Source of the DNA: Balneolaceae bacterium
Lineage (GTDB): Bacteria > Bacteroidota > Rhodothermia > Balneolales > Balneolaceae
Reading direction: 5' to 3'
Length of the DNA stretch: 64,000 bases
NCBI GenBank assembly: GCA_034521495.1
Contig: JAXHMK010000009.1
Location: forward strand, 675,001-739,000
The translations under genes were made by a program, and so were the position numbers. Shown piece by piece: positions 42,781-49,153 of this stretch. The notes beneath the pieces were generated by a model, which saw only the letters and a list, made by a program, of their open reading frames with translations, searched no databases and was not told where the DNA came from. Position 1 is the stretch's first letter, and the number at the start of each line of letters is the position of its first letter.

Positions 42781-43860
42781 TTATGCTATCGAAAGAATAT
42801 CAGCTAAAATTCCGGCAGCCGTCACTTCCTTTCCTGCACCGGGTCCCTGAATAACCAAGGGCTGATCGTAATATCGTTTCGTCTTTATCTGAACCAGGTT
42901 ATTGGTATCCGTAAGTTGCCCCAGTGTGGATGATTTTGGTACTTCACTGATTCCCACCTTTATATTTCCATTCCGTAACTTGCCAGTGTATCGAAGTGTA
43001 TTTCCAGCCTGCTCAGCTTTGGAGACTCGTTCACTCCAGTCTTTATCAAACTTGTAAAGTTCCTCGAGAAATGTCGTGGCATCAACATCTTTTAAGGGAT
43101 CGGACAACAAGTACATTCAACTTCCAGTTCATCCCGCTCAAGTTTGTAGCCGCAGATTCTTGCCAGATTAAAAATTTTCGGCAACGTCTTCGCCTGAAAG
43201 ATCATCCCGCGGATCAGGTTCGGCATAACCAAGGCTTCGTGCTTTAATCACAGATTCACTAAAACTGTTTCCTTTGTCCAGTTCAGAAAACAGGTAGGTC
43301 ATGGTTCCGGAAACAACCCCGCTTATTTCAATGATTTCATCCCCGGTTTGAATCAGGCTTTTAATTGGATTTACGATCGGTAAACCTGCTCCAACATTGG
43401 TTTCATATAAAAATTGAACATTTTTCTCTGAAGCAAGAGCGTGCAAAGATTCAAAATCCTCCTGACTTTGAGTGTTAGCCAGTTTGCTGGGTGTAACTAC
43501 GTGGATATTCTCCTTTAACAATTTTGGATAGATCTTTGTGGTTTCCAGGCTGCCGGTTGCATCAACAAAAATAACAGAGCCTTTAGTGTAAGATGTTAAT
43601 TTACTGGTGATCGATTTCCAATCCTTTTTGGGGGCTTTTAGCAGTTTTTTTAGTGTGTATTCGGTTTGAGAATGATCGTACCAAAGCATATGCTTTCGGT
43701 TACAAACACCGAGTACACGGAGTGATTTATGAGAACCGTTTTTAGAAATTTGTTTCAATAGCGTGCTGCCAACCGCACCAACGCCGGCTATAAAAATTTT
43801 CTTCACCTGTTTGGCTTGATCGGGGTTCGCTTGTTTATATGCTTTCAATTGTGATGACAT
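42781..43860 (-). pseudogene. hom: Homoserine dehydrogenase, frameshifted
   Basis: Reduces aspartate semialdehyde to homoserine, precursor of methionine and threonine. The N-terminal part (from 43860) has the NAD-binding GVGAVGS and the catalytic region FLYETNVGAGLPIVNPIKSL, ending SLGYAEPDPRDDLSGEDVA. At 43168 the frame changes to KIFNLARICGYKLERDELEVE, and again near 43125 into LKDVDATTFLEELYKFD and the final GPGAGKEVTAAGILADIL. Joined, it is about 360 residues, similar to the dehydrogenase half of ThrA; no aspartokinase part is present. Last gene of the methionine operon, 5 bp after metX. Confidence 0.8.
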
Positions 43861-43865
43861 AATTT

Positions 43866-44914
43866 TTAATAACTCAGGGTCTGTTTCTCTTTTACAAAGG
43901 GTTTGATAATCTCATTGATCTGTTCAAATTCAATCAGGAATGCATCATGACCATACGACGATTTAATTTCTTTATATTCTGCGTTTTTCAATAATTCCGC
44001 TAACTCTTTTTGTTCATGAACCGGGTAGAGATGATCAGTATTGATACCAATTACTTTTACAGGTTTTTGAATTTGCCCAAGCACCTCTTTAAAAGATCCG
44101 CGATTGCGGGATACATCGTGCGAATCCATCGCTTCTGTTAAAATGATGTACGAGTGCGCATCAAACCTGCCGGCCAGTTTTTCGCCCTGGTAATCCAGGT
44201 ACGACTCCACCTGGAACTGGGAGGTGTTCCCCTGGAAGTTTCCGCCCGAATTTTCTGTCATAATCTGAAGGAGCCCGATAGGTGATCATTGCCATCATTC
44301 GTGCGGTTGCAAGGCCTTTTTTGGGACCTTCGCCTCTATTATAATGACCGTTTTTCCAATTGGGATCGGCATAAATAACCCGCCGCTGGGCATGACTAAT
44401 TCCAATTGCCCAGGGGCTATGCGATTTCCCCATGGCAATAAGTGCGGCAGATTGAATCCGCTCATCCATAATCACGAATTCCAATGCCTGCATACCGCCG
44501 AGTGAGCCGCCAAGTACCAGCTCAATGCCGGTAATTCCAAGCTGATCTAAAAACTGCTGTTGAAACCGAACCATATCGCGGACGGTAATTTTCGGGAATG
44601 AATTTCTGTACGGATCACCGGTTTTTGGATGAACAGACCAAGGTCCAACCGATCCGTATGGGCTGCCGGGCACATTAATGCAGATGATAAAATTCTTTTC
44701 GGGATCGCAAACTTTCCCTTTACCAAAGATTCCGGGAAACCATTCATCAGCTGCTGCGTGGCCGGTCAGGGCGTGGCAGATCAATATCACATTGTTCTTC
44801 TCTTTATTCAGAGAACCCCATGTTTTATAGGCCACATCCGGGTTCATCAAACCGAAACCCGGACTCTGTGATAAATGCCTTTTTTAATTTTTCTATGGTT
44901 ATTCCTTCGTTCAT
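43866..44914 (-). pseudogene. metX: Homoserine O-acetyltransferase (MetX), frameshifted twice
   Basis: Activates homoserine for direct sulfhydrylation by the MetY product. The ATG at 44914 (MNEGITIEKLKKAFITESGF) is followed by one extra base near 44860. The main part then has NVILICHALTGHAA, the nucleophile motif GGSLGGMQALEF and AIGISHAQRR. A second frame change at about 44245 (one extra G in GGG) leads to the C-terminal part with FDAHSYIILTEAMDSHD, the INTDHLYP aspartate region and the SSYGHDAFL histidine. All catalytic residues exist across the frames. Homopolymer indels may be sequencing errors. Confidence 0.85.
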
Positions 44915-44968
44915 TTCCTTTTCATTCTTAAATATTCCCACCGGCTTAAAACCGGCAGGAACTTACAC

Positions 44969-45511
44969 TCAAAACTTCTTGAAATCTACCTGGCCATCAA
45001 TTTTTACAGGATTACTTATGATATCATGAACCGGGCATCGATCTACCGAAAGCTTTTCAAGAGCTTTAAGTTTTTCTGTATCTGTTTCATTCGTTTCAAT
45101 TGTTGTTTTATAGGAGACAGATTTAAAACCGGCACGTTCTTCCGAAAGATTCAGGAAACCATGCAGGTCCAGATCACCGTCCACTTCAACATGTACCGCT
45201 TTTATATCGATATCTAATACTGTGGCATAGGCCTTAATTACAATTTCCTGGCAAGCTGCAAATGCACCTAAAACATATTCTACCGGGTTCGGTCCTTCAT
45301 TTGTCCCGCCAAATTCAGCTGGTTCGTCTGAAATAAATTCAAAGTTCCTGATTTTTATGTTCGACAAAAATCCGTTTTCAAGTGTGGAGTTTGCTTTAAA
45401 TGTGGCATCTGCCTGTCCGGGATTTTCCTGGATTCCCTGGATTAGATTCAAAAGTGAATCTTTCAGTTTATCGTTGTTAACATTATTAATTACTGTTTCT
45501 GCTGTACTCAT
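44969..45511 (-). CDS. OsmC family protein
   Basis: 180 residues with the two conserved cysteines of the OsmC/Ohr fold, C87 (AFAACQEIVIKAYA) and C159 (SVDRCPVHDII). Family members reduce peroxides or handle reactive sulfur species. It lies between metY and metX in the methionine operon and is the only intact member. That position suggests a role linked to sulfide or persulfide, but this is inference. The 121-bp gap to metY contains a strong hairpin. Confidence 0.85.
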   Translation of the reverse strand: MSTAETVINNVNNDKLKDSLLNLIQGIQENPGQADATFKANSTLENGFLSNIKIRNFEFISDEPAEFGGTNEGPNPVEYVLGAFAACQEIVIKAYATVLDIDIKAVHVEVDGDLDLHGFLNLSEERAGFKSVSYKTTIETNETDTEKLKALEKLSVDRCPVHDIISNPVKIDGQVDFKKF

Positions 45512-45581
45512 TACTTTGTATTTTAATATTACTCTAAAGTGTATGCCGGATCCCTAAAAAGGATACAGCATACTGTTAATT

Positions 45582-45622
45582 AGCAGCAGGACTCCCGCCC
45601 GGAGTCCTGCTTTTTTTATTTA
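45582..45622 (+). terminator. Strong hairpin with T-run, plus-strand orientation
   Basis: AGCAGGACTCC, CGCC loop, GGAGTCCTGCT followed by TTTTTTT on the plus strand, between the minus-strand genes metY and osmC. In the operon direction the T-run precedes the hairpin, so it would terminate only antisense transcripts. In the operon mRNA it may work as a stabilising or processing hairpin. Confidence 0.65.
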
Positions 45623-45631
45623 AGTTGTTGT

Positions 45632-46967
<1,336 letters not shown>

Positions 46968-46989
46968 TTAATGTTAATTGAAGGTCTGT

Positions 46990-47130
46990 ATTTAGTCCCC
47001 CTTTGAAGGGGTAAGATCAGCTGCAAGTATTTGTAGCTGATCGAGGGGGATGACTTTGTCAATCGCGAACATCCCTCTGAGTTTCTCAAGAACAATTGAG
47101 AAACTCTGTCTCCCTTCAAAGGGAGATGTT
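46990..47130. repeat. Long imperfect inverted repeat between riboswitch terminator and metY
   Basis: CCCCCTTTGAAGGGG near 46998 and CCCTTCAAAGGGAG near 47111, with GATCAGCTGCAAG..TTGTAGCTGATC and GAGTTTCTCAAG..TTGAGAAACTC inside. The CCCTTTGAAGGG core is the same sequence into which the element at 63314 has inserted. It is a dispersed repeat within the metY leader. Confidence 0.6.
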
Positions 47131-47137
47131 CATCAAA

Positions 47138-47196
47138 CAAAAAAAGCCTCTTCCGAATATCCGTCCCTTTGGGAAAGATGTTCAGAAGAGGCTTTT
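47138..47196 (-). terminator. Expression-platform terminator of the SAM-I riboswitch
   Basis: On the minus strand AAAAGCCTCTTC and GAAGAGGCTTTTTTT form a 12-bp stem ending in a U-run. The loop carries ATCTTTCCC (47179-47171), an exact complement of GGGAAAGAT (47230-47222) at the 3' edge of the aptamer. The two pairings exclude each other: antitermination without SAM, termination with SAM. Confidence 0.88.
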
Positions 47197-47217
47197 ACTT
47201 ACTATATGCCTTATCGT

Positions 47218-47341
47218 CTTATCTTTCCCAAACTCGATGCAAGATCGAATTGGGCAGGATTTAGCACCTGACTTTCGATAGAAACTATCGAAACGGTTGC
47301 TAAGGTTTCTCAGGGCCTGTCCCTCCACCTTTCTGGATAAG
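47218..47341 (-). ncRNA. SAM-I riboswitch (S-box aptamer)
   Basis: The minus strand reads CTTATCCAGAAAGGTGGAGG, then GACAGGCCCTGAGAAACCTT, AGCAACC, a hairpin (TTTCGATAG/CTATCGAAA), then GTCAGGTGCTAAATCCTGCC and GATAAG, which closes P1 with the initial CTTATC. These are the conserved blocks of the S-box/SAM-I class. It lies upstream of metY and is followed by a terminator with alternative pairing to the P1 region, so high SAM should shut off the metY-osmC-metX-hom operon. Confidence 0.92.
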
Positions 47342-47383
47342 AATTCAATTTTTTAAAGAACTCATCCGCGGTTTGCGGTTAAC

Positions 47384-47415
47384 AAAAAAGCCCTGCTGGC
47401 TACCAGAGGGCTTTT
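47384..47415 (-). terminator. Attenuator terminator following the cysteine-codon leader
   Basis: Minus strand: AAAGCCCT.CTGG, TAG loop, CCAG.AGGGCTTT followed by TTTG; an 8+4 bp stem with one bulged C. Its 5' arm contains CCCTCTG (47410-47404), exactly complementary to CAGAGGG (47446-47440) just after the leader-peptide stop, giving an antiterminator alternative. Confidence 0.75.
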
Positions 47416-47448
47416 AAATTTCTTTGAAAAATTTGAGGTCCCTCTGCA

Positions 47449-47475
47449 TTATGTGCTACAACAACAAAAACACAT
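47449..47475 (-). CDS. Cysteine-rich leader peptide (attenuator uORF)
   Basis: A 27-nt reading frame on the minus strand encodes M-C-F-C-C-C-S-T-stop, four cysteine codons in eight. Its stop lies 2 nt before CAGAGGG, which can pair with the 5' arm of the terminator at 47384-47415. A ribosome finishing the peptide would cover CAGAGGG and allow termination. One stalled on Cys codons would leave it free to form the antiterminator. This is the classical amino-acid attenuation layout, sensing charged tRNA-Cys, ahead of the SAM-I riboswitch. No Shine-Dalgarno site is evident. Confidence 0.65.
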   Translation of the reverse strand: MCFCCCST

Positions 47476-47523
47476 TTTGCAGAAGAGTGAAATTATATTT
47501 TGGTTCAAATTTTTCATCACCGA

Positions 47524-47553
47524 ATAATACGTTAGAATTGTCTACAGTTGCAA
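47524..47553 (-). promoter_or_regulatory. Candidate promoter of the methionine operon leader
   Basis: On the minus strand TTGCAA (47553-47548), an 18-bp spacer, and TATTAT (47529-47524). Transcription would start near 47515, about 40 nt upstream of the leader-peptide ATG. The sequence resembles a primary-sigma-factor promoter; no experimental support. Confidence 0.5.
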
Positions 47554-47784
47554 GATTTTTTTCTCACTATTCAAAAAGGCTGCAATCCGAATCTTAAAAC
47601 GGTTTTTTGTGATGATTTCCAATCGGTTCAGATATTCAACATTTCCACCTGTTTCCTGGTCAATGGATAGATTCTGCGAAAATCAGATACTGGTCGATTT
47701 TCGATAGCTGTCTTCAAAAGGTAATGTATCTCCGCTAACAGAGAAATTACATTATTTCAGCAAAACTTACAGAGGGGACTGAAT

Positions 47785-48088: not shown

Positions 48089-49153
48089 ATGACAGCCGTT
48101 AACGGAACCATTTCACACAGTGTAAAAGAGTATTATGGTAAAGTGCTGCAAGGTACAAAAGACCTGAAAACCACCGCCTGTTGTACGACGGATTCAGTTC
48201 CTTCCCGATACAAAAAAATCTTTGAGTTAATTGAGGATGATATTTTAGACCGGTTTTACGGTTGTGGATCACCAATACCGGATGAATTGGCGGGCAAGAC
48301 AGTTTTAGATTTGGGATGTGGAAGCGGCCGTGATTCATACCTTGTCTCGAAGCTGGTGGGTGCCGAAGGTCGGGTCATCGGGGTAGATATGACGGATGAA
48401 CAACTGGATGTGGCAAATCGAAATCTGGATCAACAGATGGAAAATTTTGGATTCAGTGAACCAAATATTGAGTTTAAAAAGGGGTACATAGAAAATCTGA
48501 ATGAACTTGGTATTGAGGATAATTCCGTAGATGTAGTGATCTCTAACTGTGTGATTAATCTATCTCCTGATAAAAGATCCGTATACAGTGAAATTTTCCG
48601 TGTTCTTAAACCGGGCGGCGAGTTGTATTTTTCTGATGTCTTTGCAGATCGGCGGATACCGGAGCACCTCAAAGAAGATCCTGTTCTGTATGGGGAATGT
48701 TTATCTGGTGCAATGTACACGGAAGATTTCAGAAGAATGCTTAAAGAGATTGGGTGCCCCGATTATCGAATGCTGACCAGCAGTAGAATTGATATTGAAA
48801 ATGAAGAGATTGAGCAAAAAGTGGGAATGATTAATTTTTATTCCATTACAATTCGAGCTTTTAAGTTGGATTCATTAGAAGATATATGTGAGGATTACGG
48901 ACAGGTAGCCACCTATCATGGTACAATTGAGAACCATCCGCACAGTTTTGACCTGGATGATCATCATACGTTTTACACAGGAAAGCCGATGCTTGTTTGT
49001 GGAAATACGGCGGCTATGGTAGGAGAGACCCGGTTCAAAGATCACTTTACGGTAACCGGCGACCGGTCGGTACACTATGGTGCGTTCGATTGCGGGGAGA
49101 CACCGGTTGCATCTGAAACGGGTGATGATACACCGGCTGCTGCTTGCTGTTGA
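48089..49153 (+). CDS. arsM: Arsenite methyltransferase (ArsM)
   Basis: 354 residues. SAM-binding motif VLDLGCGSGRDSYL (72-85) with the acidic D100 (VIGVDMT). The arsenic-binding cysteines are visible: C59 (FYGCGSP), C154 (ISNCVINL) and C204 (YGECLSGA), with a C31-C32 pair. It methylates trivalent arsenic to volatile or less reactive species in the cytoplasm. It ends with a CC pair. A C-terminal extension (about 260-354) beyond the catalytic core is shared by longer ArsM proteins. No ars repressor or efflux gene lies next to it. Confidence 0.92.
   Translation: MTAVNGTISHSVKEYYGKVLQGTKDLKTTACCTTDSVPSRYKKIFELIEDDILDRFYGCGSPIPDELAGKTVLDLGCGSGRDSYLVSKLVGAEGRVIGVDMTDEQLDVANRNLDQQMENFGFSEPNIEFKKGYIENLNELGIEDNSVDVVISNCVINLSPDKRSVYSEIFRVLKPGGELYFSDVFADRRIPEHLKEDPVLYGECLSGAMYTEDFRRMLKEIGCPDYRMLTSSRIDIENEEIEQKVGMINFYSITIRAFKLDSLEDICEDYGQVATYHGTIENHPHSFDLDDHHTFYTGKPMLVCGNTAAMVGETRFKDHFTVTGDRSVHYGAFDCGETPVASETGDDTPAAACC

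Follow-up and report, generated by a model that had tools for sequence, protein, structure and literature searches.

A predicted two-stage attenuator upstream of the metY operon of Balneolaceae: a cysteine- and methionine-rich leader peptide in series with a SAM-I riboswitch

Why should the leader of a single methionine operon carry two intrinsic terminators, one after the other? The question is raised by the minus strand between positions 47553 and 47138 of the window, by which we mean the whole stretch of 64,000 nucleotides from a Balneolaceae bacterium that was analysed. A first-pass annotation had read this region as two complete terminator/antiterminator switches in series, the first governed by a short cysteine-rich leader peptide and the second by a SAM-I riboswitch. 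The follow-up supports this as the best reading, both pairings being present in the window and kept in the family. Judging from sequence comparison, the metY operon is very probably controlled by a two-stage attenuator in which a leader read by the ribosome is followed by a SAM-I element.

The genes downstream of the leader/SAM-I region were identified by profile matches as, in order, metY, an OsmC-like gene, metX and a homoserine dehydrogenase gene, all on the minus strand. The metY gene (O-acetylhomoserine sulfhydrylase, 45632-46949) is spread over two overlapping frames that match TIGR01326 with E values of 3.9e-113 and 2.7e-83, each half staying under the whole-protein cut-off of the model. 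It is followed by the OsmC-like gene at 44969-45511 (NF041052, 88.3 bits for a cut-off of 95), by metX (homoserine O-acetyltransferase, 43866-44850, two frames matching TIGR01392 with E values of 1.5e-79 and 4.2e-40) and by the homoserine dehydrogenase gene (42781-43860, two frames matching the homoserine dehydrogenase part of NF006959). Either indels in the assembly or genuine frameshifts are suggested by the fact that metY, metX and the homoserine dehydrogenase gene (42781-46949) are each broken across two frames; sulfite reductase in this genome, unlike these three, has an open frame.

The leader peptide originally put forward, M-C-F-C-C-C-S-T, proved to be the end of a longer one. Its codons and the TAA that follows them are present (47475-47449), but the presumed start, the ATG at 47475, is codon 15 of an ORF of 22 codons plus stop (MKNLNQNIISLFCKMCFCCCST, 47449-47517, minus strand) that begins at 47517, and this longer form is the one common to the relatives. 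It contains five Cys codons and only one internal Met codon. Since the frame splits in the operon genes had raised concern over indel errors, it matters that two leaders from the same genus (MKNLTNNIDYCICIMCMCCCST in G066 and MKKFNENIACCFCIMCMCCCST in G068) equal that of the window in length and layout; the ORF shows no sign of an assembly indel.

The promoter-like sequence TTGCAA-18-TATTAT is present where it had been claimed, a direct reading and a consensus scan both giving a -35/-33-like TTGCAA at 47553-47548 and, after an 18-nt spacer, a -10/-7-like TATTAT at 47529-47524, 6 nt before the leader start codon. The match would by itself be weak evidence; the scan of the 701 bases from 46940 to 47640 on both strands yielded four sites where 1.3 are expected. 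Recurrence in relatives is better evidence: in many genera the start codon of the leader is preceded by a TTGC-like element some 36 nt away and by a TA-rich one at -13 to -7, though even the best positions carry no more than about 0.5-1.0 bit. Judged by these elements, transcription would begin at the leader ATG or close to it in the genus of the window and several others, so that the leader may be a leaderless Cys-rich ORF there. This does not hold for genera g3, g7 and g16, in which the TA-rich element seems, by eye, to lie 25-30 nt upstream.

To what extent does such a leader accompany the metY riboswitch in the family? RF00162 was searched in 92 Balneolaceae genomes and matched in 82 of them at 104 places, all of which were fetched. 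Sorted by the gene downstream, 82 places matched MetY; 80 were kept as metY elements and 24 as others, the latter including one with a protein of 28% identity to MetY (G037) and one with a partial MetY (G081). Leaders were scored by the number of Cys codons in the last 14 codons of an ORF with its stop 55-175 nt before the aptamer; a criterion of at least three Cys over the whole ORF misses leaders with two. ORFs with at least two Cys codons by this rule precede 73 of the 80 metY elements as against 3 of the 24 others, and those with at least three precede 67 and none, respectively, while dinucleotide shuffles of the metY upstream sequences contain them in 14.4% (at least two) and 2.4% (at least three) of cases. 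The idea that the leader is a chance ORF was rejected on these counts. One further leader with a TTG start (G059) brings the total to 74 of the 80 metY-linked elements, and the six without a leader comprise all five metY elements of genus g19 and that of G061. The expectation that the Cys codons would be kept in the metY leaders of relatives is thus borne out within the family.

A start codon was assigned in 72 leaders (ATG in 65, GTG in 6 and TTG in 1), G051 and G062 being left out by rule. These leaders are 18-28 residues long (median 24) and hold 2-7 Cys (median 4) and 1-5 internal Met codons (median 3), at least one of the latter being found in all 72. Cys and Met account for 18.8% and 13.9% of the leader codons, versus 1.3% and 2.3% in eight ORFs of the window. 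ATG occurs 213 times in the leader frame versus 0 and 9 times in the other two frames. Of this frame test only the Met part was used, as the Cys part is confounded by ATGTGT, which makes a TGT in the +1 frame (172 TGY there versus 283 in the leader frame). Differences between leaders fall on codon positions 1, 2 and 3 in the numbers 274, 281 and 374, counted over 96 non-independent pairs, the third-position excess being modest.

The first terminator lies at 47384-47415 (minus strand) and consists of a hairpin of -17.1 kcal/mol followed by a U run. As the first-pass annotation had it, the sequence CAGAGGG is found 2 nt after the leader stop codon (47446-47440) and its exact complement CCCTCTG in the 5′ arm of the terminator (47410-47404). 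We refer to these strands as A, the putative antiterminator, and B; in the genome of the window their pairing is better than that of shuffles with p=0.026. A script found terminator 1 in 71 of the 74 leaders and did not detect it in G042, G069 and G073, which were left out of the A:B test. Among the 71, the A:B duplex is better than with shuffled A at p≤0.05 in 64 and at p≤0.01 in 43 leaders, and a combined p of 3e-17 results when each of the 16 genera is represented by a single genome; genus g2 stands out by weak pairing (p≤0.05 in 2 of 8). These figures were obtained with a wide search window adopted for all leaders, a narrower one having given 46 of 71 at p≤0.05 and 0 of 12 in genus g3, where it was too short. 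From genus to genus, B changes in step with both of its partners, A and C. Picking A:B as the best duplex favours pairing, but this choice does not explain the joint change of the A, B and C strands. At column 5, 28 of the 71 leaders have G-C-G (in the order A-B-C) and 23 have A-T-A, and at another column C-G-C occurs in 41 and A-T-A in 10. The covariation was established by anchored counting; a MAFFT alignment misplaced the terminator arm in some rows. Pairing of the CAGAGGG/CCCTCTG type is therefore conserved in relatives, as seen both beyond shuffles and in three-way covariation.

The geometry was computed for the 69 leaders present in both sets, with an assumed ribosome footprint of 13 nt counted from the start of the A-site codon. 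A stall at one or more of the Cys codons would leave all of strand A free in 69 of 69 leaders, and in 66 this would be so for at least three Cys codons, while a ribosome whose A site holds the stop codon would leave no pair of A free in 60 of the 69 and at most 34% of them free in 68. For the leader of the window, stalling at any of the five Cys codons would keep A accessible, and a ribosome at the stop codon would cover it fully. Strand A sits at the leader stop codon, and its position tracks the stop. These geometric relations also bear on the suggestion that the ORF is not translated for sensing at all, and that what precedes the terminator is either fortuitous sequence or an RNA-binding one such as a protein-bound repeat. 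The ATGTGT-like repeats do resemble a nucleotide motif. However, start codons are kept in the leaders, Cys is written both as TGT (214 codons) and as TGC (97), and strand A follows the stop codon, so that we consider this suggestion scarcely credible. A conserved Cys/Met-rich ORF, an intrinsic terminator and a mutually exclusive antiterminator are all found, and the leader together with terminator 1 displays the main sequence features of a ribosome-mediated (leader-peptide) transcription attenuator.

Strand A has a second potential partner within the leader. In the predicted minimum free energy fold, the stretch at 47486-47469 (segment 1, inside the ORF) pairs with 47457-47440, which includes CAGAGGG (segment 2), and encloses Cys codons. 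The region is more stable than shuffles in 40 of 71 relatives, and a 1:2 protector hairpin like those of the trp and his leaders is partly supported as a predicted structure in the window.

Which tRNA would the leader read? It had been proposed that the first switch responds to charged tRNA-Cys. The part of this proposal that concerns Cys is supported, the codons being kept, whereas Cys alone does not describe the leaders: since internal Met codons are found in 72 of 72, the switch probably reads tRNA-Met in addition to tRNA-Cys. It is conceivable, though we think it doubtful, that stage 1 senses cysteine only and that the Met codons (as ATGTGT or ATGATG) are kept for pairing with the stop region in the protector hairpin. 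Such a role would suit the leader of the window with its single internal Met codon and the MFE folds of several g1 leaders, in which the Met-rich stretch pairs with the stop region, and some Met codons may indeed be kept for RNA pairing instead of sensing. Against cysteine as the sole signal, internal Met is as consistent as Cys across the leaders and the excess of ATG is confined to the leader frame. The same Cys/Met mix also appears in a second set of leaders with a different nucleotide context, which are found upstream of sulfite reductase genes.

These came from a codon pattern search, which uncovered a similar leader in genus g3, ahead of genes for a rhodanese-type sulfurtransferase and sulfite reductase; seven of the 14 loci of the first pattern are sulfite reductase leaders of this genus, and L197-L199 look like chance matches. 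The protein is an assimilatory sulfite reductase according to NF010029 (733 bits for a cut-off of 457; Pfam was also run). Sulfite reductase was searched in 89 genomes and matched in 21, of which one match was weak, leaving 20 good loci. A Cys/Met-rich leader lies upstream in 19 of the 20, the remaining locus having no upstream sequence, and at other points of the 1500 bases several of the loci also contain chance ORFs that satisfy this Cys rule. The A:B pairing reaches p≤0.05 in 17 of the 18 leaders tested (L283, a short locus, was skipped). While the mix of Cys and Met is the same (e.g. MCCMICCMMM), the nucleotide context and the A strand differ from those of the metY leaders. The genome of the window has its own sulfite reductase leader, MNQQMVTTNFSATAHRNMCCMICCMMMPGKVVEKIC (L272/L285), about 100 kb from the window and without a SAM-I element. 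Among the 24 loci that two codon patterns retrieved from this genome, in a pattern search rather than a full scan, a strong terminator follows only the metY and sulfite reductase leaders. The sulfite reductase loci thus give strong independent support to the view that genes which make or use sulfide carry the Cys/Met leader as a sensor of sulfur amino acids.

Turning to the second switch, the covariance-model search assigns the aptamer at 47216-47343 (minus strand) to the SAM-I class, as annotated, by its score and consensus structure: it matches RF00162 over model positions 1-108 with 82.4 bits (gathering score 44.4, E value 6.5e-18) and is the only RF00162 match found in the genome of the window. 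The 3′ edge of the aptamer carries the predicted antiterminator strand TTTGGGAAAGAT (47232-47221), which can form 12 bp with ATCTTTCCCAAA (47179-47168) in terminator 2 (47139-47196, minus strand, about -33 kcal/mol), a pairing better than that of shuffles with p=0.01. A simple consensus scan did not list this terminator. The exact complement of the P1 edge that had been described in terminator 2 is therefore there, but in the predicted fold it occupies the upper 5′ arm and not the loop. Of the 80 metY elements of the family, 78 have a strong terminator after the aptamer, with antiterminator pairing at p≤0.05 in 63 of the 78 and not significant in 15. The expression platform expected of a SAM-I riboswitch, namely a terminator and an antiterminator that uses the P1 edge, is accordingly found here. 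Two other classes of element were considered and rejected: a T-box, for which the window has no match at the Rfam gathering score, and a tandem riboswitch with two aptamers, the window containing one Rfam riboswitch only. The region would work like a two-input gate without being a member of the latter class.

That the two switches act on one transcript could be disputed if SAM-I alone controlled metY, the attenuator residing on a separate short transcript and the metY promoter lying between the two or just before metY. A SAM-I element can work alone, since g19 and most of the hits sampled in other orders (see below) have a metY SAM-I element with no leader, and the consensus scan gives a weak promoter-like site at the metY start (46977-46948). 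This is one of only two minus-strand sites in the scanned 46940-47640 interval, the other being that before the leader, and none was found between the leader stop and the aptamer. The promoter-like elements that recur in relatives lie upstream of the leader, and the distance from its stop codon to the aptamer is conserved, with a median of 104 nt and a range of 72-157 nt over 72 leaders. We therefore regard separate transcription as quite improbable and a single leader transcript with both switches as the better account.

The two-stage attenuator may be imagined to operate as follows. The terminators, antiterminators, conserved codons and ribosome geometry can be read in the sequences, whereas we infer that the leader is translated, that ribosomes stall on it, that transcripts terminate in the cell, and which ligands are sensed. 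The short leader would be transcribed and translated at once, possibly from a leaderless 5′ AUG. When Cys-tRNA or Met-tRNA is scarce, the ribosome would stall on the Cys/Met codons and leave strand A free to capture the 5′ arm of terminator 1, and transcription would go on. With both tRNAs plentiful, a ribosome at the stop codon would cover A and allow terminator 1 to form. A polymerase that has passed this point would meet the second switch: at high SAM levels P1 should be held closed and terminator 2 should form, while at low SAM levels the aptamer 3′ edge would pair with the terminator 2 5′ arm and metY would be transcribed. As two off-switches in series, the arrangement would permit expression of the operon only when a shortage of a sulfur amino acid coincides with low SAM.

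The division of labour between the stages is suggested by where each occurs by itself. In the three loci examined, the second SAM-I element of relatives, a leader-free one, lies upstream of a methionine synthase (MetH)-like gene, which was profile-confirmed in two. Because stage 1 stands alone at sulfite reductase and SAM-I alone at the methionine synthase-like gene, stage 1 probably reports a general need for sulfur amino acids, to which stage 2 would add a control of its own for the methionine branch. The sulfur regulon of the order can thus be outlined, with the leader alone on sulfite reductase, both switches on metY and SAM-I alone on the methionine synthase-like gene. In total, 22 such second SAM-I elements were noted in several genera (e.g. 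L002, L005 and L023); they usually start with TGCTTAT, are not linked to metY and have no Cys leader.

How far does the arrangement extend beyond the family? RF00162 matches are found in 211 of 244 genomes of the class, and 60 hits outside Balneolaceae were fetched among the matches listed, 21 from the same order and 39 from other orders. The 21 loci from other families of the order all precede metY; 15 have a leader with at least two Cys and 12 one with at least three Cys in the last 14 codons. The A:B test, confined to these 21 loci, was passed in 11, of which 10 are among the 15 with at least two Cys. Of the 39 sampled hits in other orders (30 of them before metY), only 7 show at least two Cys (4 of the 30) and 1 at least three, although the scan there also allowed TTG starts and a wider window. 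Since a comparable ORF precedes just one of the 39, the leader seems to have been added within the order Balneolales to an older metY SAM-I element. Drawing these lines together, we lean towards a fuller scheme, with moderate confidence: a three-input gate for tRNA-Cys, tRNA-Met and SAM, in which a dual Cys/Met leader stands in series with SAM-I, and which belongs to a wider regulon where the leader by itself controls sulfite reductase. The leader would meter the supply of sulfide and the SAM switch its use for methionine, and the leader would have been added within Balneolales, upstream of a SAM-I metY element that is older and found across the class. A mixed Cys/Met leader would then be a dual sulfur amino-acid sensor.

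The closest known relatives are the T-box(Met)/SAM-I tandems, which likewise place two serial RNA switches on methionine genes, read tRNA charging and SAM, and allow expression if uncharged tRNA coincides with low SAM. The paper describing them tabulates two cases with the T-box first and seven with SAM-I first, some of the examples being on metX and metY; the terms leader peptide, uORF and attenuat do not occur in its main text. Their T-box RNA reads tRNA-Met without a ribosome, whereas here a translated leader would read Cys and probably Met. As the present arrangement mirrors these tandems, two unrelated tRNA-reading devices, the T-box and the translated leader, appear to have been coupled to the same riboswitch in the same pathway. 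A second parallel concerns SAM-I and adenosylcobalamin (AdoCbl) aptamers, which form a tandem NOR gate on metE (PMC9481103). It also consists of two serial off-switches of which one is SAM-I, but both inputs are small-molecule aptamers. The Clostridium acetobutylicum ubiG operon (PMC9943018) is similarly a sulfur amino-acid operon with a SAM-type RNA signal and, going by the title of Andre et al. 2008, a T-box. Its SAM riboswitch acts on an antisense RNA from the 3′ end and not serially in the leader.

With regard to the leader itself, the polycysteine leaderless sORF attenuators of mycobacteria (Canestrari et al. 2020, as cited in PMC9094748 and PMC13236596) are comparable in that a short Cys-rich ORF precedes sulfur genes, and the start here may be leaderless as well. 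A survey of Actinobacteria (PMC1262725) reports Cys leader peptides, with no conserved terminator hairpins in the mycobacterial regions; the locus studied here differs from those regions by its intrinsic terminator and conserved antiterminator, its Met codons and the SAM-I element downstream. The uORFC-8-2 motif before cysS in Rhodobacterales (PMC8632094), which has tandem Cys codons and an intrinsic terminator, is likewise predicted to act by ribosome-mediated attenuation. That motif, in contrast, precedes a cysteinyl-tRNA synthetase gene and has two conserved Cys codons, and the passages available mention no serial riboswitch; nor does the accessible text of PMC2965389 mention the arrangement. 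A search of the open PMC literature, outside which most subscription papers lie, retrieved no description of a SAM riboswitch coupled in series to a leader-peptide attenuator. As far as such open-literature searches show, this would be the first such combination described. Because the combination is conserved in dozens of species, its logic is open to comparison and to reporter tests.

Some further observations were made around metY genes. In other Bacteroidota (Pontibacter, Pedobacter, Hymenobacter, Chryseolinea, Mucilaginibacter and others), where 58 of 80 metY upstream regions were scanned for Cys-rich ORFs, multi-Cys ORFs, often with the Cys in runs, lie 68-246 nt before the metY match (L056, L059, L064, L079, L080, L081, L086, L091, L093, L096, L100, L101, L108 and L109). 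No GAGGGA motif was seen near these ORFs in a crude check for SAM-I, and no convincing intrinsic terminator followed them in 15 loci, so that we do not claim the same mechanism there; another mechanism is possible. In some relatives of the window (e.g. L017, L029, L111 and L168), a gene of about 160-190 codons, which in L111 encodes a CoA-binding domain protein (PF13380), separates the SAM-I element from metY. In the window metY follows 267 nt after the SAM-I element without such a gene. An arsenite methyltransferase-like gene (48089-49153, plus strand; NF008823, under its cut-off) is divergent to the metY operon. Finally, a match to the Rfam sRNA whalefall-1 (RF01762) lies at 47068-47129 on the minus strand, between the SAM terminator and metY. 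The element is present in 36 of 89 genomes, with 19 matches in the genome of the window and up to 54 in one relative. Because its copies are many and often form close inverted pairs in the family, it looks like a dispersed palindromic repeat here, not an sRNA gene.
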